From Rhodospirillales bacterium (GTDB taxonomy: Bacteria > Pseudomonadota > Alphaproteobacteria > ATCC43930 > CGMCC-115725), in contig CANJCB010000001.1 in the NCBI GenBank assembly GCA_947473305.1, positions 124,001 to 188,000 on the forward strand: a DNA stretch of 64,000 nt. The letters run 5' to 3'. The translations under genes and the position numbers were made by a program. Below are positions 7,605 to 49,083 of this stretch, one piece after another. Position 1 is the stretch's first letter, and every line of letters starts with the position of its first letter. Under the pieces are notes generated by a model, which did no database searches, was not told the DNA's origin, and worked only from the letters and a program-made list of their open reading frames with translations.

Positions 7605-8908
7605 GGCCGGCGAGGGCTTGTCTCGATCTCGGCCAGGATCGGCGCCAGAGGGATGCGGAGGGCCGCCGTCTCGCCTTCGATGATATGCTGGAGGGCGGCG
7701 GCAACCCTGGGGTGCCATGCCTCCTCCTGGTCGCCCCGCCAATTGGCGGCAAGCGGCAGCTTCAGCGCTTCGTAGATATCGATCAGCATGATGCTATCGG
7801 GCTGTCGGGCGATGAGCCAGCAGCCCTCGGCCGTTTGCGCCACCAGTCCCTTGGGTTGCAGCAAGGTCAGATGCTCGTCGATCAACGCGACATTGACACC
7901 CAGCCGCTGAGCCAATTCCGGCGTCCCGACCATACCTCCCTTGCGGCTCTGGGCGAAGAGCTCGGCCAGCAAGGCCAAGGCTAGGCCTAGCCTCGGCGTC
8001 GCCACCGGCGCCTTCGGCAGGCCCTCGTCCACCCGCCACTCCGGCAGCGCTGCCGCGATCACCGCGCCGAGCAGCACCACGCACCACAGGATATACATCC
8101 AGGCCAGGAAGATCGGGATGACCGCCAGCGCCCCATAGACCGCGCGATAGGTGGAGAGCTGCAGGATATAGATCCCGAAGGCGAGCTTCATGGGCTCGAT
8201 CAGGATCGCCGCGATCAGCCCCCCGGCGAGCGCTTCGCGCCAGCGAACGGTCCGGTTGGGGATCATGCAATAGACCAGGACCAGGGTCACCGCCTCCAGC
8301 AAGAAGGGCAGGAGGCGCGCGAGGCTGTGCAACCAGGTCCGCGTCAGGAGATCGCCGAGCTGCTGGCTGAAACCCATGCGCTGGGCGATCAGGTCGAAAT
8401 AGCCGGAAAACGACAAGCCGACGCCCAGCAGGATCGGCCCGAGCGTCAGGATGGTCCAATAGATCAGGACCCGCTGGAACCACGGCCGGGCCGCCGTCAC
8501 CCGCCAGATCGCGTTGAGCTGCTCCTCGACGGCGGCGAGCAGCAGGATCGAGGTGAAGGCCAGCGCGGCCACCCCGAAGGCTGTGGTCTTCAACGCGACT
8601 CCGGCGAAATAGCGGAACCACCACTCGATCTCTGTGCCGATCTGGGGCACGAAATTCGTGAAGAGCGTCGCCAGCATCTGGTCGCGGGTATCGGCGAAAA
8701 TCGGGAAGGCCGAGAGCACCGCCAGCACGATCGCGGTCAGCGGGATCAGCGACACCAGCGTCGTGTAACTTAAGGCGCCAGCTGAGGTGAAGCAGCCATC
8801 CTTCAGAAAGCGCAGGGCCACATGGCGGCTGAAGGCGGAGACGGTATGACACCCCTCCGCCAGGATCGAGCGCCATGCGGCGGCCTTGCGAGCGACTACG
8901 CTTGCCAT
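7571..8908 (-). CDS. YihY/BrkB-family inner membrane protein
   Basis: A 445-residue protein with about six transmembrane helices in its first 300 residues (for example [18 protein letters not shown] and [18 protein letters not shown]), the pattern of the YihY/BrkB family once misnamed ribonuclease BN. A soluble C-terminal part of about 130 residues looks like a winged-helix domain ([18 protein letters not shown]), as often found in this family. Function is not established; transport or envelope roles have been suggested. Its 3' end overlaps the DnaJ-class gene on the opposite strand by 34 bases, and its 5' end is divergent from fabI. Confidence 0.88.
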
Positions 8909-8982
8909 GCGTCTAGCCGCCCTCTTCCGCTTTCGTGTAGGATGCCGCGCCTTTCAGCGATTTTCCCAGGAGTAAGAGCCCA

Positions 8983-9795
8983 ATGCCCGACGTGAAACCC
9001 CTCATGGCCGGGAAGCGTGGCCTTGTCATGGGCCTGGCGAACGACCGTTCGCTCGCCTGGGGCATTGCCAAAGCCGTCCATGATCAGGGCGCGGAACTCG
9101 CCTTCACTTTCCAGGGGGAAGCCTTGGGCAAGCGGGTAAAGCCGCTCGCCGAAAGCCTCGGCAGCAATCTCATCGTCGACTGCGACGTGCTCGACGCGCC
9201 AAGTCTCGACAATCTCTTCGCCGTCTTGAGCGAGAAGTGGGGCCGGCTCGATTTCCTGGTTCATGCCATTGCCTTCTCCGACAAGGAGGAACTCAAGGGA
9301 AAGTATGTCGATACCACGCGAAACAACTTCCTGAGGACGATGGAAGTTTCCTGCTACTCCTTCACCGACCTCGCGCGCCGCGCGGCACCCCTGATGACCG
9401 AGGGCGGCAGCCTGTTGACGTTGACCTATTATGGGGCCGAGCGGGTGATGCCGCACTACAATGTGATGGGGGTCGCCAAAGCCGCGCTTGAGGCGAGCGT
9501 CCGCTATATGGCGGTCGATCTCGGCGGGCAGAACATCCGGGTCAATGCGATCTCGGCCGGCCCGATCAAGACGCTCGCGGCCTCGGGAATTGGCGACTTC
9601 CGCTATATCCTGAAGTGGAACCAGTACAATTCACCGCTGAAGCGGAACGTCACCATCGAGGAAGTCGGCGGCGCCGGGCTCTATCTCCTCAGCGATCTCT
9701 CCTCGGGCGTCTCGGGCGAAACCCATCATGTGGACTGCGGCTATCACGTCGTCGGCATGAAGGCGGTGGACGCCCCCGACATCGCGGTGGTCTGA
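8983..9795 (+). CDS. fabI: Enoyl-[acyl-carrier-protein] reductase (NADH)
   Basis: FabI reduces the trans-2 double bond of enoyl-ACP in the last step of each fatty-acid elongation cycle. The 270-residue protein carries the FabI-type NAD-binding start ([15 protein letters not shown]) and the catalytic set Y149, Y159 and K166 in the [20 protein letters not shown] region. A ribosome site AGGAG sits before ATG 8983. It heads a same-strand run with aroC (8 bases later) and sppA. FabI joins the other fatty-acid genes of the window (54.9-58.3 kb). Triclosan-type inhibitors target this family. Confidence 0.97.
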
Positions 9796-9802
9796 GCAGA
9801 AC

Positions 9803-10873
9803 ATGGCAGGCAACAGTTTCGGCGAACTCTTCCGCTTCACCACCTGGGGCGAGAGCCATGGGCCGGCGATCGGCTGCGTGGTCGATGGCGCGCCGGCTAA
9901 ACTCAAGCTCTCAGAAGCGGATCTTCAGGTCTGGCTCGACCGGCGCAAGCCTGGCCAGTCGCGCTTCACGACCCAGCGGCAGGAACCCGATCAGGTCAAG
10001 ATCCTCTCCGGCGTCTTCGAGGGCGAGACCACCGGCACCCCGATCATGCTGATGATCGAGAACGAGGATGCGCGCTCCAAGGATTACAGCGCGATCAAAG
10101 ACAGCTTCCGCCCCGGCCATGCCGATTACACCTATTGGAAGAAATACGGCATCCGCGACTATCGCGGCGGCGGCCGGTCTTCGGCCCGGGAAACCGCTTC
10201 GCGGGTGGCAGCGGGCGGCGTCGCGCGCAAGGTGCTGGGCGACGGCATCCAGATCCGCGGCGCGCTGGTCCAGATCGGCCCTCACAAGGTGGATCGCAGC
10301 CGCTGGGAATGGGACGCGGTGCAGGACAATCCCTTCTGGTGCCCCGACCGCCAGATGGCCCAGCAATGGGAAGGCTATCTCGATGGCGTGCGGAAATCGG
10401 GCTCCTCGACCGGCGCGGTGATCGAGGTCGTGGCAAGCGGGGTGCCGGTCGGGCTGGGCGAGCCGATCTACGACAAGCTCGACGCCGATCTCGCCAAGGC
10501 CATGATGAGCATCAATGCCGTGAAGGCGGTGGAAATCGGCGCGGGCTTTGCCGCCGCCTCCTTGAGCGGCGAGGAGAACGCCGACGAGATGCGGATGCGC
10601 GACGGCAAGGTGGAGTTCCTGTCCAATCAAGCGGGCGGCATCCTCGGGGGCATCTCGACGGGCCAGGATATCGTCGTGCGCTTCGCCGTGAAGCCGACAA
10701 GTTCCATCCTCTCGCCGCGCCGAACTGTGGACATTCACGGCAACGAGGTCGAAGTCTTCACCAAGGGACGCCACGATCCCTGTGTCGGCATCCGCGGCGT
10801 GCCCGTGGGCGAGGCCATGATGGCGGTCGTGCTGGCGGACCATCTCCTGAGGCAACGGGCGCTGGGCGGCTGA
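9803..10873 (+). CDS. aroC: Chorismate synthase
   Basis: AroC converts 5-enolpyruvylshikimate 3-phosphate to chorismate with reduced FMN, the last common step to aromatic amino acids. The 356-residue length matches bacterial AroC. Signature regions are present: [14 protein letters not shown] near the N-terminus, [14 protein letters not shown], the [15 protein letters not shown] segment, and [13 protein letters not shown] near the C-terminus. It follows fabI by eight bases and precedes sppA by 26, consistent with one transcript. Confidence 0.97.
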
Positions 10874-30294: not shown

Positions 30295-32466
30295 TCAATC
30301 CGCTGCCTTTGCCGCCTCGAGCACAAGCTTCGGCACGTGATGGTGGTGATGCACCGGATCGCCATGCAGCGCGCTGCCACGGCCGGAGAGGCTCGGATTG
30401 GTCATGAAATAAGTATGAGCGCTGAAAGCATCGGGTCCACCGGGTTCGCGCAGATAGATGCCATCGGCCTGGAGGTTCCAGCTCTGCGCCGTGTCCTTCA
30501 GATTGGCGACCATGATCTCATCGAGCACCTGGCGATGCACCGTCTCGTTCTCGATCGGGACCAGGGATTCGACGCGCCAGTCGAGGTTTCGCGGCATCCA
30601 ATCCGCCGAGGAGATGAACACCTTGGCGGATTTCGACGGCAGCTTGTGACCGTTGCCGAAACAGACGATCCGGCCATGCTCCAGGAAGCGCCCGACGATG
30701 CTCTTGACCCGGATATTCTCCGAAAGCCCCGTCACCCCCGGCCGCAGGCAGCAGATGCCCCGTACCACGAGATCGATCTGCACCCCCGCCATCGAGGCGC
30801 GATAAAGCGCATCGATAATGCCGGGATCGACCAGCGAATTGAGTTTCGCCCAGATCTGCGCGGGCTTGCCGGCCCGGGCATGGGCGATTTCGGCATCGAT
30901 GAATTCGAGGAGCCGCTTGCGCAGGGTCAGCGGCGCCACCGCGATCTTCTCGAGCTTCTCGGGCGTCGCATAGCCGGTCATATAGTTGAAGATCCGCGCC
31001 GCATCGCGGCAGAGTGCTGGATCGCAGGTGAAAAACGACAGGTCGGTATAAACCCGTGCCGTCACCGGATGATAATTTCCGGTCCCGAAATGGACGTAGG
31101 AACGCAGGCCCGCGCTCTCGCGCCGAACGACCATCGAGACCTTGGCATGGGTCTTCAGTTCCAGGAAGCCGTAGACGACCTGAACGCCCGCGCGCTCCAA
31201 GTCGCGCGCCCATTTGATATTGGCCTCCTCGTCGAAGCGCGCCTTCAACTCGACCAGCGCGGTTACCGACTTCCCGGCTTCCGCCGCTTCGATCAGCGCC
31301 CGGACGATGGGACTGTCGTCGCTGGTGCGGTAGAGCGTCTGCTTGATCGCCACCGCCGCGGGATCGCGCGCCGCCTGGCGCAGGAACTGCACCACCACGT
31401 CGAAGCTCTCGTAGGGGTGGTGGACGATGATGTCCTTCTGCTGGATCGCCGCGAAGCAATCCCCGCCGAAGTCGCGGATGCGCTCGGGGAAGCGGGGATT
31501 ATAGGGCGTATAGACGAGGTCCGGACGGTCGTCGGTGATGAGCTTGCGCGTGTCCGCCAAACCCAGCAGCCCGTCCAATTGGAAGATGTCGTCGGGCGAG
31601 GCGTCGAAATTATCGGCCAGGAACCGCAGGAGATCCTTCGGCATGCCCGCGTCGACGCTCAGCAGGATCACGTGGCCGCGGCGGCGGCGCTTCAGCGCGG
31701 TCTCGTAGAGGCGCACCAGGTCCTCGGCCTCTTCCTCCACCTCGATGTCGCTGTCGCGCAGGATGCGGAACATGCCCTTGCCCTTGACCGCGAAACCGGG
31801 GAAGAGCCGGTCGAGGAACAGACCGATGACCTGTTCCATCGGCATGAAGCGGATCGCCGGTCCCGGCAGCCGCACGAAACGGCCGACCGAGGGCGGCACC
31901 GGCAGCAGCGCCTGCATCCGCGTGCCGTCGCTGGCGCGAAGCAATTGAAGCGCGATGCCGAGCCCGAGATTGGCGATGAAAGGGAATGGATGGGCGGGGT
32001 CGATGGCAAGCGGTGTCAAAACCGGGAAGATGTCGGCCATGAAGCGCTCGCCGAGCCAGGTCTTGTCCTCTTCCGAGAGCTCGGAAGGGTCTAGAAGACC
32101 GATACCGGCGGAGCGCAATTCCTGGCGCAGCGCCAGCCAGCGGACCTGCTGGTCGAGGGTCAGGCGGCCCGCCCTTTCGGAAATGGCCGTCAGCTGTTGC
32201 GCCGTGGTCAGTCCGTCCTGGCTGCGCGCGGTGATACCGCCCAGCACATGGCCTTTGAGGCCCGCGACACGAACCATGTAGAATTCGTCGAGGTTGCTCG
32301 CCGAGATCGACAGGAAGCGCAGCCGCTCGAAGAGGGGCTGGTTGGGGTTGTCCGCTTCCGCCAGCACGCGCTCGTTGAACGCGAGCCATGAAAGCTCGCG
32401 GTTGATGAAACGGGCTTCGGAAGTAAGGTCGATCGATTTCTGCGCTGCGCGCTGGACCCGTGCCAC
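30295..32466 (-). CDS. ppk1: Polyphosphate kinase 1
   Basis: PPK1 reversibly builds polyphosphate from ATP. The 723-residue length is standard. It has the N-terminal [16 protein letters not shown] signature, the membrane-independent four-domain layout, and the autophosphorylated His at about 440 in [14 protein letters not shown] 32466 is the start: AAGGAG lies nine bases upstream, and a longer frame from 32688 would cross the divergent sixA gene. The C-terminus carries five consecutive His residues (PVHHHHHVP). Followed two bases later by ppx. Confidence 0.96.
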
Positions 32467-32475
32467 GTCGGGGGA

Positions 32476-32481
32476 CTCCTT
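32476..32481 (-). promoter_or_regulatory. Ribosome binding site for the GTG start of ppk1
   Basis: CTCCTT on the plus strand reads AAGGAG on the coding strand, nine bases before GTG 32466, supporting that start over upstream ATGs. Confidence 0.65.
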
Positions 32482-32561
32482 GTTTTCTTGCCGGCACGAC
32501 GAGTCTATAACCTCAACATGGCGTTCTCGTGACGCCCTGTCCAGCGAGGAAAACAGATACC

Positions 32562-33074
32562 GTGCGAGAGCTTTATCTGCTGCGCCACGCCAAGACGAAG
32601 CTGGCCGAGCCGGGACAAGCGGACCGGGACCGGGCACTGGCCCCTCGGGGCCGCCGTGCATCGCCCGAGATCGGCACCTATATGGCAACCGAGGGAATGA
32701 TCCCCGACCTCGTGCTTTGCTCGACCGCTCTAAGGACGCGGGAGACGCTCTCGCTTCTGCTCACGGGCCTGCGCGCCACGCCGGGGATCCTCTTCGAGGA
32801 AGAGCTTTACCTCGCCGAGGCCCAGACCCTCCTCGACCGCTTGAGCGACCTCCCGGCGAATTCCAGCCGGGTGCTTGTCGTGGGCCATAATCCCGGCATC
32901 CATGAACTGGCTCATCACTTCGCCCGACATGGCGCGTCGGAAGCGGCCCTCGCGCTCGCCTCCGGATTTCCGACGGGAGCCCTCGCGCGTTATGAACTGG
33001 AAGGGGACTGGAGCGAGATCGACCGCCTGGTCCGGCTTGTCGGCTACAAGACGCCCCGGGGCGACGAGGCCTAG
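32562..33074 (+). CDS. SixA-type histidine phosphatase
   Basis: A 170-residue member of the histidine phosphatase superfamily, SixA branch: catalytic His in [10 protein letters not shown] (RHA rather than RHG, as usual for SixA), [11 protein letters not shown], and the second His in [10 protein letters not shown]. SixA dephosphorylates His residues of phosphotransfer proteins, in E. coli the PTS-Ntr protein NPr. GTG 32562 puts the catalytic motif at the N-terminus; GTG 32529 is an alternative. Divergent from ppk1; its stop shares a CTAG with the convergent hda gene. Confidence 0.9.
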
Positions 33075-39468: not shown

Positions 39469-40968
39469 CTATCCCTCGTAATTGGCCGCGACGAACTGGT
39501 CGAGAAGGCGGAGACCGAAGGCGGTCGCGCCCTTCGGCACCGTGGCCGTATCCTTCTTCGACCAGGCGACACCCGCGATGTCGAGATGCGCCCAGGGAAC
39601 CCCATTGGTGAAACGCTGGAGGAATTGCGCCGCGACGATGCTCCCGGCGTCGCGGCCCCCGGCAATGTTCTTCATATCGGCCGCGTCGCTGTCGATCATC
39701 CGGTCGTAGGCATCGCCGAGCGGCATCCGCCACAAGGCCTCTCCCGCCTGCTTGCCCGCTGCGGTCAGCCGCTCGGCAAGCTCGTCGTTATTGGCGAAAA
39801 GACCGGCATGCTCATGGCCCAGCGAGATGATGATGGCGCCCGTAAGCGTCGCCAGATCCACCATGAACTTGGGCTTGAAGCGGTCCTGGCAGTACCACAT
39901 GACGTCGCAGAGCACGAGGCGGCCTTCCGCATCCGTATTCAGGACCTCGATGGTCTGCCCTGACATGGAGGTGACGATATCGCCCGGCCGCTGGGCGGTG
40001 CCGGAGGGCATGTTTTCCACAAGGCCGACCAGCCCCACCGCATTGACCTTGGCCTTCCGACCGGCCAGCGCCTTCATCAGGCCGATCACCACGCCCGCGC
40101 CGGCCATATCCCACTTCATGTCCTCCATGCCGGCGGAGGGCTTGATCGAGATGCCGCCGGTGTCGAAAGTGACGCCCTTGCCGAGAAAGGCGATCGGCGC
40201 CTGATCCTTGGCCTTGGGCGCGCCCTTCCATTGCATCACGACGAGACGCGGCGGCCGGGCGCTCCCCTGCGCCACGCCGAGCAGAGAGCCCATGCCGAGC
40301 TTCCGCATCTTCTTCTCGTCGAGTATCTCGATCTCGACGCCGAGGGCAGCCAGCGTTGCGGCCTGGGCGGCCAAGGTCTCCGGATAGATGATATTGGCGG
40401 GTTCCGACACGAGGTCACGCGTCAGGAAAATTCCGTCGGCGATCTTGTCGAGAGGCTGGAAGGCCCGGCGGGCCGCCGTCGTTTCGGCACTCAGCAGGGA
40501 GAACTTCGCCATGGTGGGCTTTTGCTCGGGCTTCTGCTTGGTGCGGTATTTATCGAAGCGATAGGAGCGTAGCCGCGCGCCGTAACCCACCTGGGCGGCC
40601 GCTTCCGCCGCTCCCAGGGGACTGCCCTGGACCGGATCGAGCAGCACCGAGGCCTCGGTCTCGCCCACGCCGTTCAAATGCTGGAGGATCTGCCCGCCGA
40701 GATTCTGCCAGCCGAGCGTATCGAGCCCCGCCGCCTTGCCGAGACCGATCAGCACGATCCGGGTAAGTTCGGTGCCGGCGGGGGCCAGGATCGCCAGGAT
40801 CTCGTCCTTCTTGCCGGTGAAACGGCTGGCCTTCAGCGCCCGGGTGATGGCGCCTCCCGCTGCCTTGTCCACCGCCTTGGCCGAGGCCGTCAGGCGCCGC
40901 TCGTCCAGCGCGCCCACGACGACGGCGCCGGATTTGGGCAGCGATAGCTCGGCAAAGGCGATCTTCAT
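39469..40968 (-). CDS. pepA: Leucyl aminopeptidase
   Basis: A 499-residue M17 aminopeptidase releasing N-terminal Leu and other residues with two metal ions. The metal and active-site regions LGKGVTFDTGGISIKPS, MKWDMAGAGVV and the signature NTDAEGRLVL are intact. In E. coli PepA also binds DNA in plasmid recombination and carAB control. ATG 40968 has AGGA seven bases upstream; GTG 40974 is two codons earlier. holC follows. Confidence 0.96.
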   Translation of the reverse strand: MKIAFAELSLPKSGAVVVGALDERRLTASAKAVDKAAGGAITRALKASRFTGKKDEILAILAPAGTELTRIVLIGLGKAAGLDTLGWQNLGGQILQHLNGVGETEASVLLDPVQGSPLGAAEAAAQVGYGARLRSYRFDKYRTKQKPEQKPTMAKFSLLSAETTAARRAFQPLDKIADGIFLTRDLVSEPANIIYPETLAAQAATLAALGVEIEILDEKKMRKLGMGSLLGVAQGSARPPRLVVMQWKGAPKAKDQAPIAFLGKGVTFDTGGISIKPSAGMEDMKWDMAGAGVVIGLMKALAGRKAKVNAVGLVGLVENMPSGTAQRPGDIVTSMSGQTIEVLNTDAEGRLVLCDVMWYCQDRFKPKFMVDLATLTGAIIISLGHEHAGLFANNDELAERLTAAGKQAGEALWRMPLGDAYDRMIDSDAADMKNIAGGRDAGSIVAAQFLQRFTNGVPWAHLDIAGVAWSKKDTATVPKGATAFGLRLLDQFVAANYEG

Positions 40969-41031
40969 GGGCACATCCTGTCAGGAGGGATCGGGGTCAT
41001 GGGAGCGATAGTCGCAAACTCGGCGAGCCTG

Positions 41032-42945
41032 TCAATTCGAATGCGCGGGCGGAAGGTCGGAGTCGGCATCGGCTCCCGCCGCGCCGGGGCGGCAGAACGG
41101 ACCGCTCGAAAGATTGCCGACCCAACGCTCTCGCGGGTCGGAAGGGGGATAGGCCAAGGTTTCCACAGGGTGCCATTCCCCCCCCTCCTCGACCAGGAAG
41201 ATCGCGCTGCGGGGCGGCAGATCGGGGAAAGCCGGAGTGGTACAGCTCAAAAGCGCTTTACGATATCCCTGCGCGGCAAGGGAGGACAAGGTCGCCGGAT
41301 CGGCGACGCCGCTTTCCGCGATATCGAGATTAAGCCGCCGGGGCGGGACAAAGCGGATCCAGGATTTTAGCATCCAGGAGACGGTCGTATTGTCGCCGGG
41401 CAGCAAAAGAGCGACTTTCTCGTCTGGCCCGACGTGGCGCGCGACGAGTTGAGCCAGATCCGCGACATAGGGCTGCGGCGGGATGATATCGAAGCGCAAC
41501 CGCTTCACGAACAGCAGCGGCGCCGCCAGCATCAGAACGATCCCCGCCGCGGGCACGATCCGGCGCCAGCGTCCGCCGTCCGGCGACCAATCCGACCAGA
41601 AGGCCGCCAAGACCAGTACGATCACCAGCGAAAGATGCGTGCTGTAGCGGAAATAGGAATGAGCCCCGGGCTCGCCCTCATGGGCGAAATGCCCGATGTA
41701 GGTCACGATCAGGAAGACGTTGTAAGCCAGGAAGACGACCGTGGCCAAACCCGCCAGCCGCACCGTTCCACCGAAGCCCCGGCGAAGGGCGAGCAGCCCG
41801 AAACCGGCGATCACGACCGCCAGGCATCCGAAAAAATAGCCCTTATCGGTCATGATCTTGAGCATTTCGAGGACGAGCGACGGAATTGTCTCGAACTGCC
41901 ATTGCGAAAAGGGAGCGGGTTTCAATTCACCGATGGCGAAATGGGCCTGAACATACCACCGCCAAACCAGATAGAGCGCCGCGGCCGGCAGGGCCGCACA
42001 GGCCAAATCGCGGAGCGCGTTCAGGAGGCGGATGCGCCGGTCGATCAGGGCCAGGACGCCCATGCTTCCCAGTGTCGCGGCGACCAGAGCGACGCTTGCC
42101 TGCTTGATATTGACGAGCGCCGCGAGAACGAGCGCCAATTGCCAGATCACGCCGCCGCGCGGTTCTCCGGTCTCGATCCGGTTCAGGAGCCTTGCCGCCA
42201 GCCAGACCGCCCCCCCCAGGGCGACGGAGATCGGCGCCTCGCCATAGCCCGAGAAATGAACGCGGGGAGAAAAACCGGGATTGATCGCGATCGCGATCAG
42301 CAATCCCCAGGCACAGAGCGCCCAGGAAGGCGGGGCATCGAGCCGTCCCCATAGCACCCGGGCGAGAAGCAGGCCCGACAAAACCTGAAGCAGGATGTTG
42401 AAATGGGCCATTCCCGAGACGGGATAGAAACCCGGGGTGAGCAACGAGCCGATAAACGCCACGAATTGCGTGTTGTAGGGAGCGCCGGGCAGGAAGGAAT
42501 AGCTGGGAGGCCGGACATCCGCCGGAAACATGCCGTGGTCGACCAGATAGGCCAGGTTCGGCAGCAGGTTCATGAAGGTGTCGGTCATCGCCGGGCGCGC
42601 CGGCGCGAGAATGATCCAGACCGGCAGGGAAAGGACCATGACGCGAAGAAGCGCTCCCCATTCGTCGCGCCGCGGGCGGGAATGAGGCAAGACGAGGCCG
42701 GCAAGACCGGCGCAGAGGATGAGCGCCGCGGGAATCCGCAGGGAAACGTCCGTCACGGCCCCCCAAAACGTGAGGACGAGACAGGCCAAGCCCCAGCCCG
42801 CGATCACATCGATTTCCACCAGACCGGATTTTGGCGCCACGAGGCGTCCCAGTCCCAGAAAGGCCGCTGCGACGACGAGGATCGAGGCGAGTTCCCAAAG
42901 ATCCGACCAATGGGGGAAATAGGCCGGCAACAAGGCAGCTGTCAT
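41032..42945 (-). CDS. Polytopic membrane protein, probable GT-C type glycosyltransferase
   Basis: A 637-residue protein with a dozen or more hydrophobic helices up to about residue 490 and a soluble C-terminal part that ends in a low-complexity Ala/Gly/Asp tail. The first large exoplasmic loop holds an acidic motif (ARPAMTDTFMNL) where GT-C enzymes place the catalytic Asp, followed by LPGAPYNTQF. This layout suggests transfer of a sugar from a polyprenyl-phosphate donor, but I recognise no specific family. It overlaps the preceding gene by ATGA, so the pair is coupled. Confidence 0.6.
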   Translation of the reverse strand: MTAALLPAYFPHWSDLWELASILVVAAAFLGLGRLVAPKSGLVEIDVIAGWGLACLVLTFWGAVTDVSLRIPAALILCAGLAGLVLPHSRPRRDEWGALLRVMVLSLPVWIILAPARPAMTDTFMNLLPNLAYLVDHGMFPADVRPPSYSFLPGAPYNTQFVAFIGSLLTPGFYPVSGMAHFNILLQVLSGLLLARVLWGRLDAPPSWALCAWGLLIAIAINPGFSPRVHFSGYGEAPISVALGGAVWLAARLLNRIETGEPRGGVIWQLALVLAALVNIKQASVALVAATLGSMGVLALIDRRIRLLNALRDLACAALPAAALYLVWRWYVQAHFAIGELKPAPFSQWQFETIPSLVLEMLKIMTDKGYFFGCLAVVIAGFGLLALRRGFGGTVRLAGLATVVFLAYNVFLIVTYIGHFAHEGEPGAHSYFRYSTHLSLVIVLVLAAFWSDWSPDGGRWRRIVPAAGIVLMLAAPLLFVKRLRFDIIPPQPYVADLAQLVARHVGPDEKVALLLPGDNTTVSWMLKSWIRFVPPRRLNLDIAESGVADPATLSSLAAQGYRKALLSCTTPAFPDLPPRSAIFLVEEGGEWHPVETLAYPPSDPRERWVGNLSSGPFCRPGAAGADADSDLPPAHSN

Positions 42946-44444
42946 TTAACGATCCTGAAGAGCTGCATTCCCTCACCTTGAAACACCGGCTCAAGCAAAG
43001 GCGACGGCATGACCTGGAAGGGCGCTCGATTAACGAAGACGAGATAGTCGAAGCGCTCCAGAGCCGCATCCGCCTTGCCGCCGCTCTCGGTCACGAACAC
43101 CGACCACAGAATGCTGGGGCTGGTCTTTTCGGCGACGCGGCGCACGCCGGCCTTTATGGCGACGGGCTGCTGGGTCGGGTAGGCGAAGAGCGTCGGCACG
43201 AAGGCATCCCGCCGCGCAATCGCCAGCGTCGGGAAATGAAGGACCGGCATTCGGTCCGCATGAATGGACGAAGGCGGAAAGGCGACCGCCAGGCAGGCCC
43301 CTTCGGGGATCTTGTCGAGCGCCGCGAGAAGCGGGGCATATCCCCGGTCGTCCCCGATCCAAACCCCATAGATCACCGCCATCCGCGCGACGAACACGCA
43401 TCCCACCACCCAGGCGAAAGCCTTGCGGCCCCGGTCCCGCAGGAGAGGTTCCGTGCTGCCCAGGAAAAGAAGCGCCAGGGCAAGGGGTATCCGATGATCG
43501 GCTCCGGTCGCCGTCATGAGTCGACTCGGCATAGCCAGATAGGTCAGCAGCAGGAAGATAAGCGGCCAGCGCATTCTGCGGTCGATGCGCAAACCGCCCC
43601 GCCAGGCGATCCAGATGAAGAGCAGAACCATGCCGGCAAAGCAGGCGACGTCAAAGGGCCGGCTGTAATTGTCGAAAAGACTGAAGGGCAGGTCGAATTT
43701 TCGCAGCGGGTTGCCGAAGCTAATCTCGGCACCCGATCCGCCGTCCGACATCAGCCCGAAGATCAGAAGCGGCGGCAGGAACGGAAGGGACTGGAGAAGA
43801 AGCTCGCCTGCCCCCCGCAGGCTTAAAAGACGCCGCTCCTGGATCCTGGCGCCCAGTTCGAACCCCGCCGCCATGACCGCCCAGAGCCCAAAGGCAAGGA
43901 AATGACTACTATAAAGGGCCAGCGAAAAGATCGCTGATATCGGCAGCCGCAACCCTGGCCGGTCCCGCAGCCAGATCCAGGCGGCAAGAGCCCAGAAGGC
44001 AAGCCCCAGGCCGAACAGGTAGTTGAGGAAACCCCACAGGAAAACACGATTGTAGAGCAGCAGGAACACGAGGCACGGCCAAACCGACCAACGGCCGAAA
44101 AGGACCCGATGAAGCACCATCGGGCCCCCGGCGATGAGCAGGAAAATAGCCAGCAGGAAGACCTTGCCCCCAGCGGCCAGGGGCATGATCCAGGCAAGCG
44201 GCGGGACGATCAGATCCATCGCCAGATTAGGCAGTGGCCGCCAATTGATTTCGTAATAGCGCTGCAGCCAGGCCGATTGATCCCAGCGCGCCAGGATATG
44301 CATGCGGGCCAGATGGTTCGGATAATCGACCAGAGGGGGTAAATTTACCCACAGCAGAGGCAGCGCGACCACGGCAAAGAGCGCGACGAACAGGCCAAGG
44401 ACGGCAGCCGGCCGCCAAGGGGGTGGATTCGTCGCTTCCGCCAT
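42942..44444 (-). CDS. Polytopic membrane protein, GT-C-like, uncharacterised
   Basis: A 500-residue protein with about ten to twelve helices. After the first helix a loop reads NLPPLVDYPNHLAR; the Asp there sits where GT-C glycosyltransferases have their catalytic acid. The last 130 residues form a soluble domain (IPEGACLAVAFPP, RFDYLVFVNRAPF). I know similar hypothetical proteins in other Proteobacteria but no tested function. First gene of a two-gene operon, divergent from lptF across 145 bases, hinting at a surface-glycan role. Confidence 0.6.
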   Translation of the reverse strand: MAEATNPPPWRPAAVLGLFVALFAVVALPLLWVNLPPLVDYPNHLARMHILARWDQSAWLQRYYEINWRPLPNLAMDLIVPPLAWIMPLAAGGKVFLLAIFLLIAGGPMVLHRVLFGRWSVWPCLVFLLLYNRVFLWGFLNYLFGLGLAFWALAAWIWLRDRPGLRLPISAIFSLALYSSHFLAFGLWAVMAAGFELGARIQERRLLSLRGAGELLLQSLPFLPPLLIFGLMSDGGSGAEISFGNPLRKFDLPFSLFDNYSRPFDVACFAGMVLLFIWIAWRGGLRIDRRMRWPLIFLLLTYLAMPSRLMTATGADHRIPLALALLFLGSTEPLLRDRGRKAFAWVVGCVFVARMAVIYGVWIGDDRGYAPLLAALDKIPEGACLAVAFPPSSIHADRMPVLHFPTLAIARRDAFVPTLFAYPTQQPVAIKAGVRRVAEKTSPSILWSVFVTESGGKADAALERFDYLVFVNRAPFQVMPSPLLEPVFQGEGMQLFRIVK

Positions 44445-44575
44445 TCGCGTGTTGGCAGCCCCGTGTCAATGTTTGGAACGCAGTTATGAGACCCAGACTT
44501 CGCCGGAGCAACCGGAAATCCCGGACCCCATCGGATGGCGGCGATTCGCCCTAGGCGTCGTGCTTGCCGCCCCCC

Positions 44576-44581
44576 TATAAT
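44576..44581 (+). promoter_or_regulatory. Candidate -10 element very close to lptF
   Basis: A perfect TATAAT lies eight bases before ATG 44590, rare in such GC-rich DNA. Transcription would begin about two bases before the start codon, and no Shine-Dalgarno match is present. No clear -35. Confidence 0.35.
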
Positions 44582-44589
44582 CCGCGACC

Positions 44590-45708
44590 ATGAAAGGGAT
44601 AACCCGTTACATCCTGCGCCAAAACATCATCATCCTGGCCGCGGTCACGGTGGCCTTCACCGCCGCTGTTTGGCTCATCGAATCCCTGCGCCTTATCGAC
44701 CTGATCGTGAACCGCGGTCTGTCGGCGGGGACGTTCCTCTATCTGGCGATGCTCATCATCCCGCGCTTTATCAATGTCGTGCTGCCGATCGCGGTCTTCA
44801 TCGCCGTGGTCTTCACCTACAACAAGCTGATCGCCGAGAGCGAACTGGTGGTCATGCGCGCCTCCGGCATGAGCCCGCTCGACCTGGCGCGCCCCGCGGT
44901 CATCGCGGGGGTTCTCGGCTCCATCATCCTGCTTTTCTTGTCGCTCTGGCTGATGCCGGCTGCCAATCGAGCTTTCAAGGACCTGCAGTTCGAGATCCGC
45001 AATCGCTTTGCCTCGGCCCTCCTGCAGGAAGGCGTTTTCAATACGCTCTCGGACAAGCTCACTGTCTATGTCCGCAGCCGTGACCAGAACAACGAGCTCT
45101 ACGGTCTTCTCATCCAGGACAGCCACGACCCGGCCAAGCCCACCACGATCATGGCCGAGCGGGGCGCCTTCGTGGACGGGCCGGACGGCCCCCGCGTTCT
45201 CATGGCGAACGGCAATCGCCAGCAATACGATCGCGCTTCGGGAAAGCTCTCGGTCCTGAGTTTCGAGAAATACACGCTCGACCTCGCCAATCTGCGGGAT
45301 ACACCGACCTCGCGCTCCCGTCAGCCGGATGAGCGCTATCTTCCCGAATTGATCGGGCCATTCGATGAGGATGTGGAACGGCAATGGGGCCGCTGGCTCA
45401 GGCTGGAACTGCATCAAAGGCTTGCCATGCCTCTAAGCGCCCTGGCCTTCGCGGCCATTCCGCTGGCCTGCCTTCTTCCCGGAGAATTCAATCGGCGGGG
45501 TCAAACCAGACGCGTGCTCCTGGCCGTCGTACTTGCCCTGCTTCTCGAAATACTGCAACTCGGGGCGCGCAATCTGGCGGCCGGAAATCTTGCCGCGATC
45601 CCACTCCTTTATGTCATGGTCATTCTGCCGATCCTTGCCACCTATTGGCTCCTGTGGCGCGATGCGCGGCGACGCCCCGCGCGTGTGGCTGAGGCGCCGG
45701 CGGAATAG
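44590..45708 (+). CDS. lptF: LPS export permease LptF
   Basis: One of two paralogous permeases that, with LptB, extract LPS from the inner membrane. The 372-residue protein has three N-terminal and three C-terminal helices around a periplasmic beta-jellyroll, with the family start RYILRQNIIILAAVTVAF and the cytoplasmic ESELVVMRASGMSPLDLARPA segment that contacts LptB. lptG follows one base after the stop. ATG 44590 has no ribosome site. Confidence 0.94.
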   Translation: MKGITRYILRQNIIILAAVTVAFTAAVWLIESLRLIDLIVNRGLSAGTFLYLAMLIIPRFINVVLPIAVFIAVVFTYNKLIAESELVVMRASGMSPLDLARPAVIAGVLGSIILLFLSLWLMPAANRAFKDLQFEIRNRFASALLQEGVFNTLSDKLTVYVRSRDQNNELYGLLIQDSHDPAKPTTIMAERGAFVDGPDGPRVLMANGNRQQYDRASGKLSVLSFEKYTLDLANLRDTPTSRSRQPDERYLPELIGPFDEDVERQWGRWLRLELHQRLAMPLSALAFAAIPLACLLPGEFNRRGQTRRVLLAVVLALLLEILQLGARNLAAGNLAAIPLLYVMVILPILATYWLLWRDARRRPARVAEAPAE

Positions 45709-45709
45709 C

Positions 45710-46807
45710 ATGTCTCCCTGGAAAACGCTTTCGCGCTACATCGCCCGCCAGTTCCTCCTGTGGGTCGTCAGCATCTTCCTGGCGATGACCAGCATCGTGT
45801 TCCTGTTGGATTATATAGAACTCATCCGCCGAGGGGGCGTGAAGACAGAAGCGACCCTGCTAACGCTTTTGGCCATGGCAGCCCTGAAACAGCCCTATAT
45901 GGCCCAGCAGATCCTGCCTTTCGCGATCCTCTTCGGGACGATGATGGCGTTCTGGCGCATGACCCGCAGCAACGAGCTTGTGGTCGCGCGCGCCGCCGGC
46001 ATTTCGGTATGGCAATTCCTGACCCCGGCGGTGACTTGCGCGCTCGTTATCGGCGTCATCGCGGTGACGGTCTTCAATCCGGTCGCTTCGGTCATGCAAG
46101 CCGGCTACGAAGCTTTAGAGAACCGCATCCTCCGCAGCAACGGCGATCAGCTTTCCCTTTCCCATACGGGCTTCTGGCTGCGTCAGAGCGACGACGAAGG
46201 AAACCATTCGGTTATCCATGCCGAGCGACTAGGATCCGGAGATATCGCCCTGGAGGACGTGATCGTTCTTTTTTTCAATGATGACAACCGGCTACGCGCT
46301 CGCCTCGACGCGCGGGAGGCACATCTGCGCGACGGCTATTGGAGCGTTCGCGATGGCACGCGCTGGGCTCCCGATAAACCGCCGGAGGCATTTACCGAGT
46401 TGACTGTCCCGACCAATCTGACGCCCCGTAAGATCCAGGAAAGCTTCGCATCGCCTGAAAGCATGTCCTTCTGGGAGCTGCCCGGCTTCATCAAGCTGCT
46501 TCAGGAATCGGGCTTCGCGACCCAGCACCACCGGCTCTATTACAACGCGCTTCTGGCCCGCCCGTTTCTGTTCGTCGCCATGGTGCTGATCGCCGCCACC
46601 TTCAGCCTCCGCATGCATCGGCGAGGCGGCACCGCCTTGATGATATCCGGGGGCATCGGCGCGGGCTTCCTGCTCTATTTCGGCTCTAACGTCGTCTTCG
46701 CGCTGGGCCTTTCCTCGACCATCCCGGTCATCCTCGCCGCCTGGACCCCGACGGGGGTCAGCTGGCTCCTGGGGGCCACCTTGCTTCTCCACCTGGAGGA
46801 TGGCTGA
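45710..46807 (+). CDS. lptG: LPS export permease LptG
   Basis: The partner of LptF, 365 residues, same architecture: SRYIARQFLLWVVSIFLAM start, coupling helix region SNELVVARAAGISVWQFL, periplasmic jellyroll, and a final three-helix bundle (RPFLFVAMVLIAATFSLR). It begins one base after lptF and its TGA overlaps the lptD ATG by one base, so lptF-lptG-lptD are read as one unit. Confidence 0.95.
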   Translation: MSPWKTLSRYIARQFLLWVVSIFLAMTSIVFLLDYIELIRRGGVKTEATLLTLLAMAALKQPYMAQQILPFAILFGTMMAFWRMTRSNELVVARAAGISVWQFLTPAVTCALVIGVIAVTVFNPVASVMQAGYEALENRILRSNGDQLSLSHTGFWLRQSDDEGNHSVIHAERLGSGDIALEDVIVLFFNDDNRLRARLDAREAHLRDGYWSVRDGTRWAPDKPPEAFTELTVPTNLTPRKIQESFASPESMSFWELPGFIKLLQESGFATQHHRLYYNALLARPFLFVAMVLIAATFSLRMHRRGGTALMISGGIGAGFLLYFGSNVVFALGLSSTIPVILAAWTPTGVSWLLGATLLLHLEDG

Positions 46808-49083
46808 TGGCCTTCATGGGGGGGAAGAGCCATCGGCGAAGCCTGGCGGCAGGGAGCATCGTTCTCCTTACGGCTCTGCTCGGGCTCTGGTTGAACGAAC
46901 CGGCAGCAGCGCAGGAAAGACGGCCTGGCCGGATAGCTTCATCCTCGTCGATCCGGCAATCGCCAGTGCTCTTCAACGCGAACGAAGTGCAATACGACCA
47001 GGACCTGTCGCTGATCGTCGCGCGCGGCAACGTCGAAATTTCGCAGAACGACCAGGTCCTTCTGGCCGATACGGTAACCTATAACCAGCGCAGCGACACT
47101 GTGACGGCGTCAGGCCATGTGAGCCTCTTGACGCCCTCCGGAGAAATCGTCTTCGCCGAATACATGGAACTCACCCAAGAGCTCCGAGACGGCTTCGTCA
47201 AGGACGTCCGGATGCTGTTGAGCGATCGGTCGCGGCTCGCGGCCAACGCCGGCCGGCGTATCGAAGGCAATCGCACGGAACTGCGCCGCGCGGTCTATTC
47301 GCCCTGCGATCTTTGCGCCCGGAATCCCAATTCGCCGCCGCTTTGGCAGATCGAGGCGGATCGGATCACCCACGACAAGGAATTGCAGCTCGTCGAATAC
47401 CGGGATGCCTTCATGGAGATCGACGGGATTCCAGTCTTCTATCTTCCCTATTTTTCCCATCCCGACCCGTCGGTCCGTCGCCGCAGCGGCTTTCTCGCGC
47501 CCAGCTTCGGCTATTCCAATACCCTGGGAGCCCGGGTCGAAATCCCCTACTACTGGGCGATTTCCCCCGACAAGGACATGACCTTCAGCCCGCTTTTCAC
47601 AAGCAAGGGCGGGGAAATCTTCGCGGGCGAATATCGCCAGCGCTTTGTGAACGGCAGTCTCCAGACCTCAGGCAGCGCCGGCTATGCCCCCTTGCAACTC
47701 GGCACGGCCACCAATCCCACGCCGCCGAAGGACGATTTCCGCTATCACATTTTCAGCAAGGGATCCTTCGATCTCAACGATGTTTGGCGGGGCGGCTTCG
47801 ATGTCCGCCGCACCTCGGATCAGACCTACCTCCGGCGTTACGGCTTCGGCGGCAGCGAGCCGTTCCTGACCAGCCACGGCTTCGCCGAGGGCTTTCTGGA
47901 TCGCACCTATGCGAATATCGACGCCTATTCCTTCCAGAGTCTCCGCTCGGGGTTTGGAGACAGCAACCAGGCGATCGTCTCCCCCGCGGCAGGCATCAAC
48001 TGGGTCAGTACGCCCGATGCCCTGGGCGGACGCTGGAACACCAACGCCAATCTCCTTAATCTCGTCCGTCCGAATGCGGCGAACCTGCAAAGATTGTCGC
48101 TGGGAACCTTGTGGGAGCGGCCCTTCAACGGTCTGATCGGCGACCGCTTCACCTTTACCGCCAGCATGCGGGGCGATGGCTATTTCTCCAGGAATGTGCA
48201 ACCGACCCCCTCCAACCGGCCGATAGACGCGCTGACCGGCCGAGCCTATCCCCAGATGTCTCTTACTTGGCGTTATCCCTGGGTACGCCGGGGTGACGGA
48301 TATAGTCAGATGTTCGAACCCATTGTCGCGGCCATCGGAGCGCCCGTCGGGGGCAATTCGGCCCTCATTCCCAATAGCGACAGCAGCGGTTTCGAGTTCG
48401 ACGAAACGAAACTCTTCTCCACCAACCGCTTTCCCGGCTACGACCGGGTCGATGGCGGCCAGCGCGTTGATTATGGCTTCAGGGCAGCCGTCTACGGCGA
48501 CGGCGGCGGAAGCACGCGTCTCATCGTCGGTCAGAGCTATCGCTTTCAGAAGATTGCGGGCTTCCCGATAGGTAGCGGCGTCGAGAATCAGAAATCCGAC
48601 ATCGTCGGGCGTGTCGTCGTGTCGCCCGACTCCTTTTTCGACATGGTTTATCGCTTTCGTCTCGATAAGGAGGACTTCGCCTCCCGCCGGCAGGAATTCG
48701 GGATCATCACTGGGCCGGATACCTTCCGCGTCAACCTCAACTATGTGGCACTTTCAGCGAATGGCGCGAGCACGGATCTGGTTTCCTCCCATCAGGTCAC
48801 GGGCGCCCTCACCGCGCAGGTCAGCCAATATTGGTCCGTGGCTCTCAGCGGCACGCGCAATATCGGCAGTGGCAGCGCGACATTGGGATCCGGCATTGCG
48901 CTCATCTATCGGGACGAGTGCCTGAGCTTCGTTACCTCCTTGACCCAATCCGGCACGCGCGACCGGGATGTCACCCCTGGCACGACGCTTCTCTTCAGCA
49001 TCGTCTTCAAGAATCTTGGCGACGTCGGGATCAAAGGTTTCTCGACCGGCAGTCAGTCGACGAACCAGACCGTTACCCGTTGA
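46807..49083 (+). CDS. lptD: LPS-assembly outer membrane protein LptD
   Basis: The 758-residue outer-membrane barrel inserts LPS into the outer leaflet. A signal peptide ends near AAAQ (about residue 36); an N-terminal jellyroll of OstA/LptA type (NEVQYDQDLSLIVARGNVEI) is followed by the barrel domain with many aromatic-alternating strands. Paired cysteines in the SPCDLCARNPNSPPLW segment and a later DECLSF may form the disulfides needed for folding. It overlaps lptG by one base; surA, which folds barrel proteins, follows. Confidence 0.95.
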   Translation: MAFMGGKSHRRSLAAGSIVLLTALLGLWLNEPAAAQERRPGRIASSSSIRQSPVLFNANEVQYDQDLSLIVARGNVEISQNDQVLLADTVTYNQRSDTVTASGHVSLLTPSGEIVFAEYMELTQELRDGFVKDVRMLLSDRSRLAANAGRRIEGNRTELRRAVYSPCDLCARNPNSPPLWQIEADRITHDKELQLVEYRDAFMEIDGIPVFYLPYFSHPDPSVRRRSGFLAPSFGYSNTLGARVEIPYYWAISPDKDMTFSPLFTSKGGEIFAGEYRQRFVNGSLQTSGSAGYAPLQLGTATNPTPPKDDFRYHIFSKGSFDLNDVWRGGFDVRRTSDQTYLRRYGFGGSEPFLTSHGFAEGFLDRTYANIDAYSFQSLRSGFGDSNQAIVSPAAGINWVSTPDALGGRWNTNANLLNLVRPNAANLQRLSLGTLWERPFNGLIGDRFTFTASMRGDGYFSRNVQPTPSNRPIDALTGRAYPQMSLTWRYPWVRRGDGYSQMFEPIVAAIGAPVGGNSALIPNSDSSGFEFDETKLFSTNRFPGYDRVDGGQRVDYGFRAAVYGDGGGSTRLIVGQSYRFQKIAGFPIGSGVENQKSDIVGRVVVSPDSFFDMVYRFRLDKEDFASRRQEFGIITGPDTFRVNLNYVALSANGASTDLVSSHQVTGALTAQVSQYWSVALSGTRNIGSGSATLGSGIALIYRDECLSFVTSLTQSGTRDRDVTPGTTLLFSIVFKNLGDVGIKGFSTGSQSTNQTVTR

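Follow-up and report, generated by a model that had tools for sequence, protein, structure and literature searches.

Here, we present computational evidence that two adjacent genes, called A and B, in the genome of a Rhodospirillales bacterium (GCA_947473305.1; genome G000) encode glycosyltransferases of the GT-C type and probably belong to a surface sugar-decorating system of known general type that is built on two new enzyme families. The genes lie next to the lipopolysaccharide (LPS) export genes lptF, lptG and lptD in a 64,000-nucleotide stretch of contig CANJCB010000001.1 (positions 124,001 to 188,000), which was analysed as a whole and is hereafter called the window. We propose, at a probability of roughly 0.7, that A and B are the transferases of a multi-component glycosylation system similar to GtrB/GtrA/GT-C systems, with LPS as the most likely acceptor. 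Computed support comes from the fold, conserved acidic residues, the orphan status of both families, the coupling of the genes, their association with GT2 and GtrA genes through linkage and co-occurrence, and an lptF/lptG neighbourhood in several families; from these we infer the activity, the donor lipid and its flipping, the sharing of one donor by A and B, and the acceptor. A sequence-only reading of the window had singled out A and B as an overlapping, coupled pair beside LPS-export genes, and the open reading frames (ORFs), their strands, the ATGA junction and the Pfam matches of LptF, LptG and LptD all agree with that layout. Read in the sequence, the stop codon of A (TGA, 42944-42942) shares bases with the start codon of B (ATG, 42945-42943), an overlap that makes translational coupling likely. 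Each gene is the only match of its family in G000.

Structure models place both proteins among the GT-C glycosyltransferases. AlphaFold2, supplied with alignments of 25 A sequences (A1) and 21 B sequences (A2), all from the order of the window, reached a predicted local distance difference test score (pLDDT) of 89.7 and a predicted template modelling score (pTM) of 0.91 for A, and a pLDDT of 87.1 and a pTM of 0.89 for B. Helices dominate both models, and the C-terminal part of each is mixed alpha/beta, in agreement with the many helices and the soluble C-terminus that had been read from the sequence. At E ≤0.001, Foldseek returned two matches for A, both to ArnT (best 3.5e-4), followed by ALG12, oligosaccharyltransferase (OST), AftB and AftA. 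For B, three matches passed this threshold, AftA twice (best 8IF8, 4.1e-6) and OST, and AftB as well as bacterial or archaeal OST ranked further down. The candidates of Foldseek itself were re-scored with VIA-align, a tool that warns for helical proteins around Z 13. The 11 best rows for A were Pmt4, OST, AftA and ArnT, at Z 16.3-17.2 over 327-437 residues with root-mean-square deviations (rmsd) of 4.2-6.4, including Pmt4 at Z 17.2 (327 residues, rmsd 4.5) and ArnT at Z 16.4 (411 residues, rmsd 4.3). B aligned to ArnT at Z 17.9 over 424 residues (rmsd 5.5); its GT-C rows extended to Z 7.3 and, one designed protein aside (see below), non-GT-C rows began at Z 6.9. Because the best Z scores exceed the warning level of about 13, both A and B are GT-C proteins by their predicted fold, in line with the earlier suspicion from sequence, against which an unrelated fold would have counted. 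In B, three helices (residues 13-36, 43-64 and 70-85) precede the ArnT-aligned core, which begins at residue 92. It is very improbable that the two belong to a different class of polytopic proteins, such as a flippase, an O-antigen ligase or an Lpt accessory protein, that merely resembles GT-C. While neither has a sequence match to a characterised GT-C, their top fold rows are GT-C over most of the chain, the O-antigen ligase WaaL (7TPG) reached no more than Z 6.4 with B (202 residues), below the GT-C rows listed, and an invariant first-loop aspartate and linkage to GT2 and GtrA genes (see below) likewise argue for glycosyltransferases. We regard it as highly likely that A and B are both GT-C enzymes using a polyprenyl-phosphate sugar.

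Putative catalytic residues are conserved in both families. Conservation was followed in A1, which took 25 of 27 A candidates (L017 and L025 left out), and A2, which took 21 of 27 B candidates (L040, L050, L051 and L053-L055 left out; L029-L031 and L056-L058 were never among the candidates for either alignment). It was also followed in wide alignments of A (A3) and B (A4, 16 rows), and in class-wide rows, counting only rows with a letter at the respective column. A3 combines loci of an 80-locus A set with class-wide loci in 46 rows, 45 of them distinct (L117 and L244 are identical, L102 and L106 97% identical). Among the 30 class-wide A rows are A1 members and the copy of the window itself (L213), and L231 and L238 represent one place; the 14 class-wide B rows include fragments, among them L188 and L190. 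Asp40 of A is invariant in A1 and A3 and is kept in 28/28 class-wide rows. It is also present in 82/82 rows with a letter from the 80-locus set (84 rows), a count that is biased because this set, the best 80 of 203 loci, was found partly by the pattern LxDYPNHL. The position of Asp77 in the same loop is always acidic (D 41, E 5 of the 46 A3 rows; D 24, E 4 of 28 class-wide rows), and the only invariant columns of A3 are D40, G138, H181 and R318, the last being a candidate binder of the donor phosphate. Asp122 of B is invariant in A2 and A4 and is found in 11/11 class-wide rows, and the position of Glu236 alternates between the two acids (E 8, D 8 of 16 A4 rows; D 8, E 3 of 11 class-wide rows). 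Invariant columns of A4 comprise D122, W328, R433, Y434 and eight others. A passage in the GT-C literature leads one to expect a DxD or modified DxD motif in the acidic loop (PMC8035078), and the putative catalytic loops of A and B fit this expectation, as judged from the helices of the models and from a membrane orientation deduced from the fold. The early acidic loop of the sequence-only reading, which had named conservation of its acid among homologues as decisive, was thus recovered in A; in B the loop with the invariant aspartate comes first only within the GT-C core, as other loops precede it in the chain.

Both families are orphans at the sequence level. Neither A nor B matched a single Pfam or NCBIfam family at E 1, including PMT_2 (PF13231) and the other Pfam GT-C profiles. 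Searches with the alignment members against Pfam at E 0.1 gave isolated weak matches only, to DPM3 and MreD (one A1 member each) and to DUF1656 and PufX (one A2 member each). At E 0.01, A3 members had one Pfam match, to an intein domain (E 0.0065), and A4 members none; in NCBIfam, single members matched SirB2 (A3; E 0.0025) and the LIC_10190 family membrane protein (A4; E 8.2e-4). When PDB sequences were searched by profile with A and B, only chance matches appeared and no GT-C of known structure. Profile comparison also detected no relation between A and B (hhalign probability 0.7%, E 0.078), and the idea that they are recent duplicates was dropped for this reason. Among plasmids, 13 records had A matches, seven of them from Azospirillum, with no annotation or as 'hypothetical protein'; only the record from Methylobacterium bullatum covers at least 80% of A.

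A and B tend to occur together. In 43 genomes of the order, surveyed at E 0.001, A was found in 31, B in 27 and both in 26. The genes are adjacent in 18 of these 26 genomes, as read from coordinates, in tandem in 11 and convergently in seven (in G010, G013 and G029 a contig end truncates one of the two). Of the other eight, G014, G015 and G042 have A and B apart, and five are masked by contig ends or extra A copies. That adjacency is kept across a change of orientation suggests a functional link between the two proteins. This link could be as tight as an obligate heteromer, comparable to Pmt1-Pmt2 or EmbA-EmbB, complexes named in entries among the VIA-align rows of A, with one protein catalysing and the other binding the acceptor. 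The ATGA overlap in the window and the adjacency in two orientations would fit such a complex, as would the speculation, in part of a review, that a small GT-C may rely on another protein to bind the acceptor (PMC8035078). We nevertheless consider an obligate heteromer unlikely, as the catalytic-type aspartate is kept in both A and B, the proteins are encoded apart in the three genomes named above, and 13 of 385 genomes in a survey of the class (21 A-positive, 14 B-positive) have A without B and six have B without A. Judged by record titles, A is also found in Nitrospira and other phyla in the 80-locus set, and one genome of the window's order, G041, carries five A-like matches.

The sequence-only reading had described A and B as a two-component enzyme system. 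The two coupled GT-C proteins stand, and the label falls short in that at least one more protein would be required to make a donor and flip it, for which a GT2-GtrA fusion is the best candidate. Neighbour clustering identified a DPM1-like GT2 cluster as the commonest neighbour of A (19/80 loci), followed by the cluster of B (18). By direct search of the same 80 loci, 21 have a GT2 gene no more than 3 kb from A; 18 of these also have GtrA, and in two further loci the nearest GT2 is beyond this distance. Class-wide A loci with fetched flanks have GT2 within 3 kb in 7/23 cases (L194, L243, L245, L246, L253, L258 and L259; L243 and L125 of the 80-locus set are one place). The arrangements are diverse: in the Nitrospira-type loci L094, L096, L100, L101, L111, L112 and L129, A is followed by a nearby GT2-GtrA gene on the opposite strand; L140 has separate genes in the order GT2-GtrA-A and L202 in the order GT2-B-GtrA. 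By Pfam, GT2 and GtrA are fused in L072, L075, L076, L088 and L095, the order being A-B-GT2GtrA in L095 and a convergent A and B followed by GT2GtrA in L075. A GT2 domain fused behind an LPG_synthase_TM domain (PF03706) is encoded 2.7 kb from A in L089 (9182-11014, plus strand) and is possibly another kind of synthase-transporter fusion.

In G000 itself, the single GtrA-domain match (PF04138, above the cut-off) is part of such a GT2-GtrA fusion on a different contig (C14:3303-4445; GT2 part PF00535, E 2.4e-30), which is 53% identical to the gene beside A and B in L075 and, judged by its domain make-up, may produce a polyprenyl-phosphate sugar. At E 1e-30, 35 of the 43 genomes of the order have relatives of the fusion. 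They stand directly beside an A in G014, G015, G018 and G019 and beside B in G025 (a convergent A/B pair) and G029, and are 2.3 kb from B in G007. Across the class, a GtrA match was found in 20/21 A-positive and 118/364 A-negative genomes (Fisher p 7e-9; 4e-7 after removal of the window's family) and in 11/14 B-positive and 127/371 B-negative genomes (p 0.001), with the relatedness of the genomes ignored in all tests. Linkage and co-occurrence thus lend support, by association, to the previous guess of a polyprenyl-phosphate-sugar donor, and it is fairly likely that A and B use the donor of the GT2-GtrA fusion.

The LPS-export neighbourhood bears on the acceptor. In the window's family (f1), lptD-lptG-lptF running one way and A-B-pepA with further genes running the other way is repeated in ten loci (L061-L067, L069, L071 and L073), several of which are cut by contig ends so that some genes are unseen. 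B is separated from lptF or lptG by at most two genes in four families, namely f1, f58 (L194), f105 (L198, L199 and L203, where GT2 sits between B and lptF) and f161 (L201). Names used here without Pfam support (ndk, the kinase in L194, the polysaccharide genes in L197) were given by eye or by similarity to genes of the window. L194 contains GT2GtrA-B-A collinear with lptD-lptG-lptF, with one kinase-like ORF between them, as well as a second, divergent set of GT2, GtrA, a second B-like gene and an Acyl_transf_3 gene (L194:12121-16404, plus strand, G098). In L201, a B-like gene (8156-9943, minus strand, G347) lies between lptG and surA, the slot that lptD occupies in the window; lptD itself was not seen in the 18-kb stretch of L201, the part of G347 that was searched. 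The class-wide search gave 11 B loci that do not belong to f1; five of them are near lptF or lptG, and seven have GT2 adjacent or one gene away.

We judge the chances that LPS is the acceptor to be about even. A and B could also be GT-C enzymes as proposed that act on a protein in the manner of PMT or OST, on an exopolysaccharide or capsule, or on another lipid, with the lpt neighbourhood being a housekeeping block inherited in synteny, an alternative that we hold possible but somewhat doubtful. It would account for the fold matches of A to the protein glycosyltransferases PMT and OST besides ArnT, for the presence of A in Nitrospira and other phyla, and for L197 (G145), in which B lies among polysaccharide-like genes and not among lpt genes. 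Against it stand the proximity of B to lptF or lptG in four families and the complete GT2GtrA-B-A set collinear with lptFGD in L194.

Several observations weigh against the proposal of an LPS-directed system fed by the GT2-GtrA fusion. Concerning the fold, a CLC channel ranks eighth among the Foldseek matches of B, and the designed repeat protein 7rdr (Z 10.5) appears among its GT-C rows in VIA-align. Concerning the donor, a GT2 at 3 kb or less from A is missing from 59/80 loci (many of them cut by contig ends) and from 16/23 class-wide loci. The GT2-linked loci are also not independent, because the search seeds for GT2 and GtrA were drawn from these same neighbourhoods and the Nitrospira type accounts for seven of the 21. 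In G000, the fusion gene is unlinked to A and B, and five PMT_2 matches and other GT2 proteins are possible alternative users or makers of donors. A fusion is present without A or B in G026, G030, G031 and G035, for which reason the notion that it is exclusive to A/B genomes was dropped. Besides the neglect of relatedness in the Fisher tests, A-positive G049 lacks a GtrA match, as do three of the 14 B-positive genomes (G250, G339 and G416), though these have GT2 beside B. Concerning the acceptor, only 10/80 loci, all in the window's family, have lptF at 3 kb or less from A; a general lpt linkage of A was dropped on this account, and the count also fits a non-LPS acceptor. The B homologue of L203 (8498-9373, plus strand, G339) is interrupted by stops, so that B is dispensable there; pepA, GT2 and lptF still match, as in a decaying copy. 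Finally, the lpt linkage of B in four families may reflect one ancestral location, in which case the argument would be one of retention and not of independent gain.

We propose the following course for a GtrB/GtrA/GT-C-like system with A and B as its transferases. A cytoplasmic DPM1-like GT2 would load polyprenyl phosphate with a sugar, and the GtrA domain, fused to GT2 in G000, would flip the resulting sugar-lipid. A and B could then each transfer a sugar to an acceptor at the periplasmic face through the invariant aspartate in the first loop of the core (D40 and D122, respectively). The acceptor would most likely be LPS (core, lipid A or O-chain) awaiting extraction by LptFG. A narrower version, in which A and B form a heteromeric pair dedicated to LPS that decorates lipid A or core at LptFG extraction and is fed by a separate fused synthase-flippase, would amount to export-coupled tailoring of LPS in alphaproteobacteria by two undescribed GT-C families but seems improbable.

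Several known GT-C enzymes can be compared with A and B. ArnT (PDB 5EZM/5F15) transfers 4-amino-4-deoxy-L-arabinose to lipid A and is a GT-C enzyme acting on LPS in the periplasm. It is the best or a near-best fold match of both A and B, whereas identity on the structural alignment is 9% for A and 15% for B, both lack a PMT_2 match, and B has additional helices ahead of the core. The mycobacterial AftA, AftB, AftD and Emb proteins (8IF8, 9DLH, 6W98 and 7BVC) likewise combine a GT-C part with a soluble C-terminal part, and AftA is the top Foldseek match of B, albeit at 15% identity. In rhizobia, several Rgt GT-Cs share dodecaprenyl-phosphate-galacturonic acid for LPS. This resembles our proposal in concept (several GT-Cs, one polyprenyl-phosphate sugar, LPS, alphaproteobacteria); the Rgt enzymes are of the PMT_2 type, unlike A and B.

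As to the system as a whole, passages in two articles describe multi-component systems that consist of a sugar-lipid synthase, a flippase (GtrA or other) and a GT-C and that target O-antigen, teichoic acid or other polymers, for example GtrB/GtrA/GT-C in O-antigen glucosylation in Shigella and Salmonella and CsbB/GtcA/YfhO in Firmicutes; one flippase serving three polymers is reported there as well (PMC11127046, PMC8035078). According to part of the latter article, GT-Cs of separate systems may share little sequence similarity (PMC8035078). The system proposed here has the same kinds of components, a GT2-type synthase, a GtrA flippase and a GT-C, with the three genes side by side in L140 and L202. 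It differs in having two unrelated GT-C proteins side by side, next to lptF and without Pfam or NCBIfam match, and in that the candidate synthase and flippase are fused and unlinked in G000. The kind of system is known; what appears new are both families of GT-C proteins and their pairing next to lpt genes. For these orphan families a fold is now predicted and candidates are named for the catalytic residues and the donor partners, with which unassigned membrane proteins of the A and B types in Rhodospirillales-like bacteria, Nitrospira and others become testable as glycosyltransferases. More generally, GT-C enzymes that have diverged too far for sequence profiles appear recognisable by fold together with a GT2/GtrA context. 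Should LPS be the acceptor, the locus next to lptF would point to a periplasmic LPS modification; neither such a modification nor the A-B pair or an lptF-linked GT-C was found described in the open-access literature searched, as judged from titles, term counts and abstract openings.

In the window, lptF, lptG and lptD run divergently from A and B. Beyond B, the minus strand continues with pepA and holC, and PepA and HolC have Pfam support. The positions of the main features and residues are compiled in Table 1.

Table 1. Genes, junctions and conserved residues at the A-B locus (positions within the window)
Feature	Position	Strand	Remarks
Gene A	42942..44444	-	500 amino acids; ORF list; predicted GT-C-fold membrane protein, sequence-orphan family
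Gene B	41032..42945	-	637 amino acids; ORF list; predicted GT-C-fold membrane protein, sequence-orphan family
ATGA overlap, A stop/B start	42942..42945	-	sequence read directly
A Asp40 codon (DYPNHLAR, residues 40-47)	44325..44327	-	putative catalytic acid, first loop of GT-C core
A Asp77 codon	44214..44216	-	second acidic residue, same loop as D40; invariant in A1
A His181 codon	43902..43904	-	invariant in A1 and A3; H in 27/27 class-wide rows
A Arg318 codon	43491..43493	-	invariant in A1 and A3; R in 25/27 class-wide rows
B Asp122 codon (TDTFMNL, residues 121-127)	42580..42582	-	putative catalytic acid
B Glu236 codon	42238..42240	-	second conserved acidic position; nearly invariant in A2
B Arg433 codon (FRY motif)	41647..41649	-	invariant in A2 and A4; R in 10/10 class-wide rows
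Divergent intergenic region between A and lptF	44445..44589	.	145 bp; ORF coordinates, sequence
lptF	44590..45708	+	PF03739, E 1.4e-79
lptG	45713..46807	+	PF03739, E 9.1e-74; start codon tentative
lptD	46807..49083	+	PF04453, E 1.9e-54
pepA	39469..40974	-	first gene downstream of B; PF00883, E 1.2e-125

Elsewhere in the window, a large ORF (30295-32688, minus strand) resembles a polyphosphate kinase by eye, and a small ORF that adjoins it (32529-33074, plus strand) resembles, also by eye, a SixA-type phosphatase.

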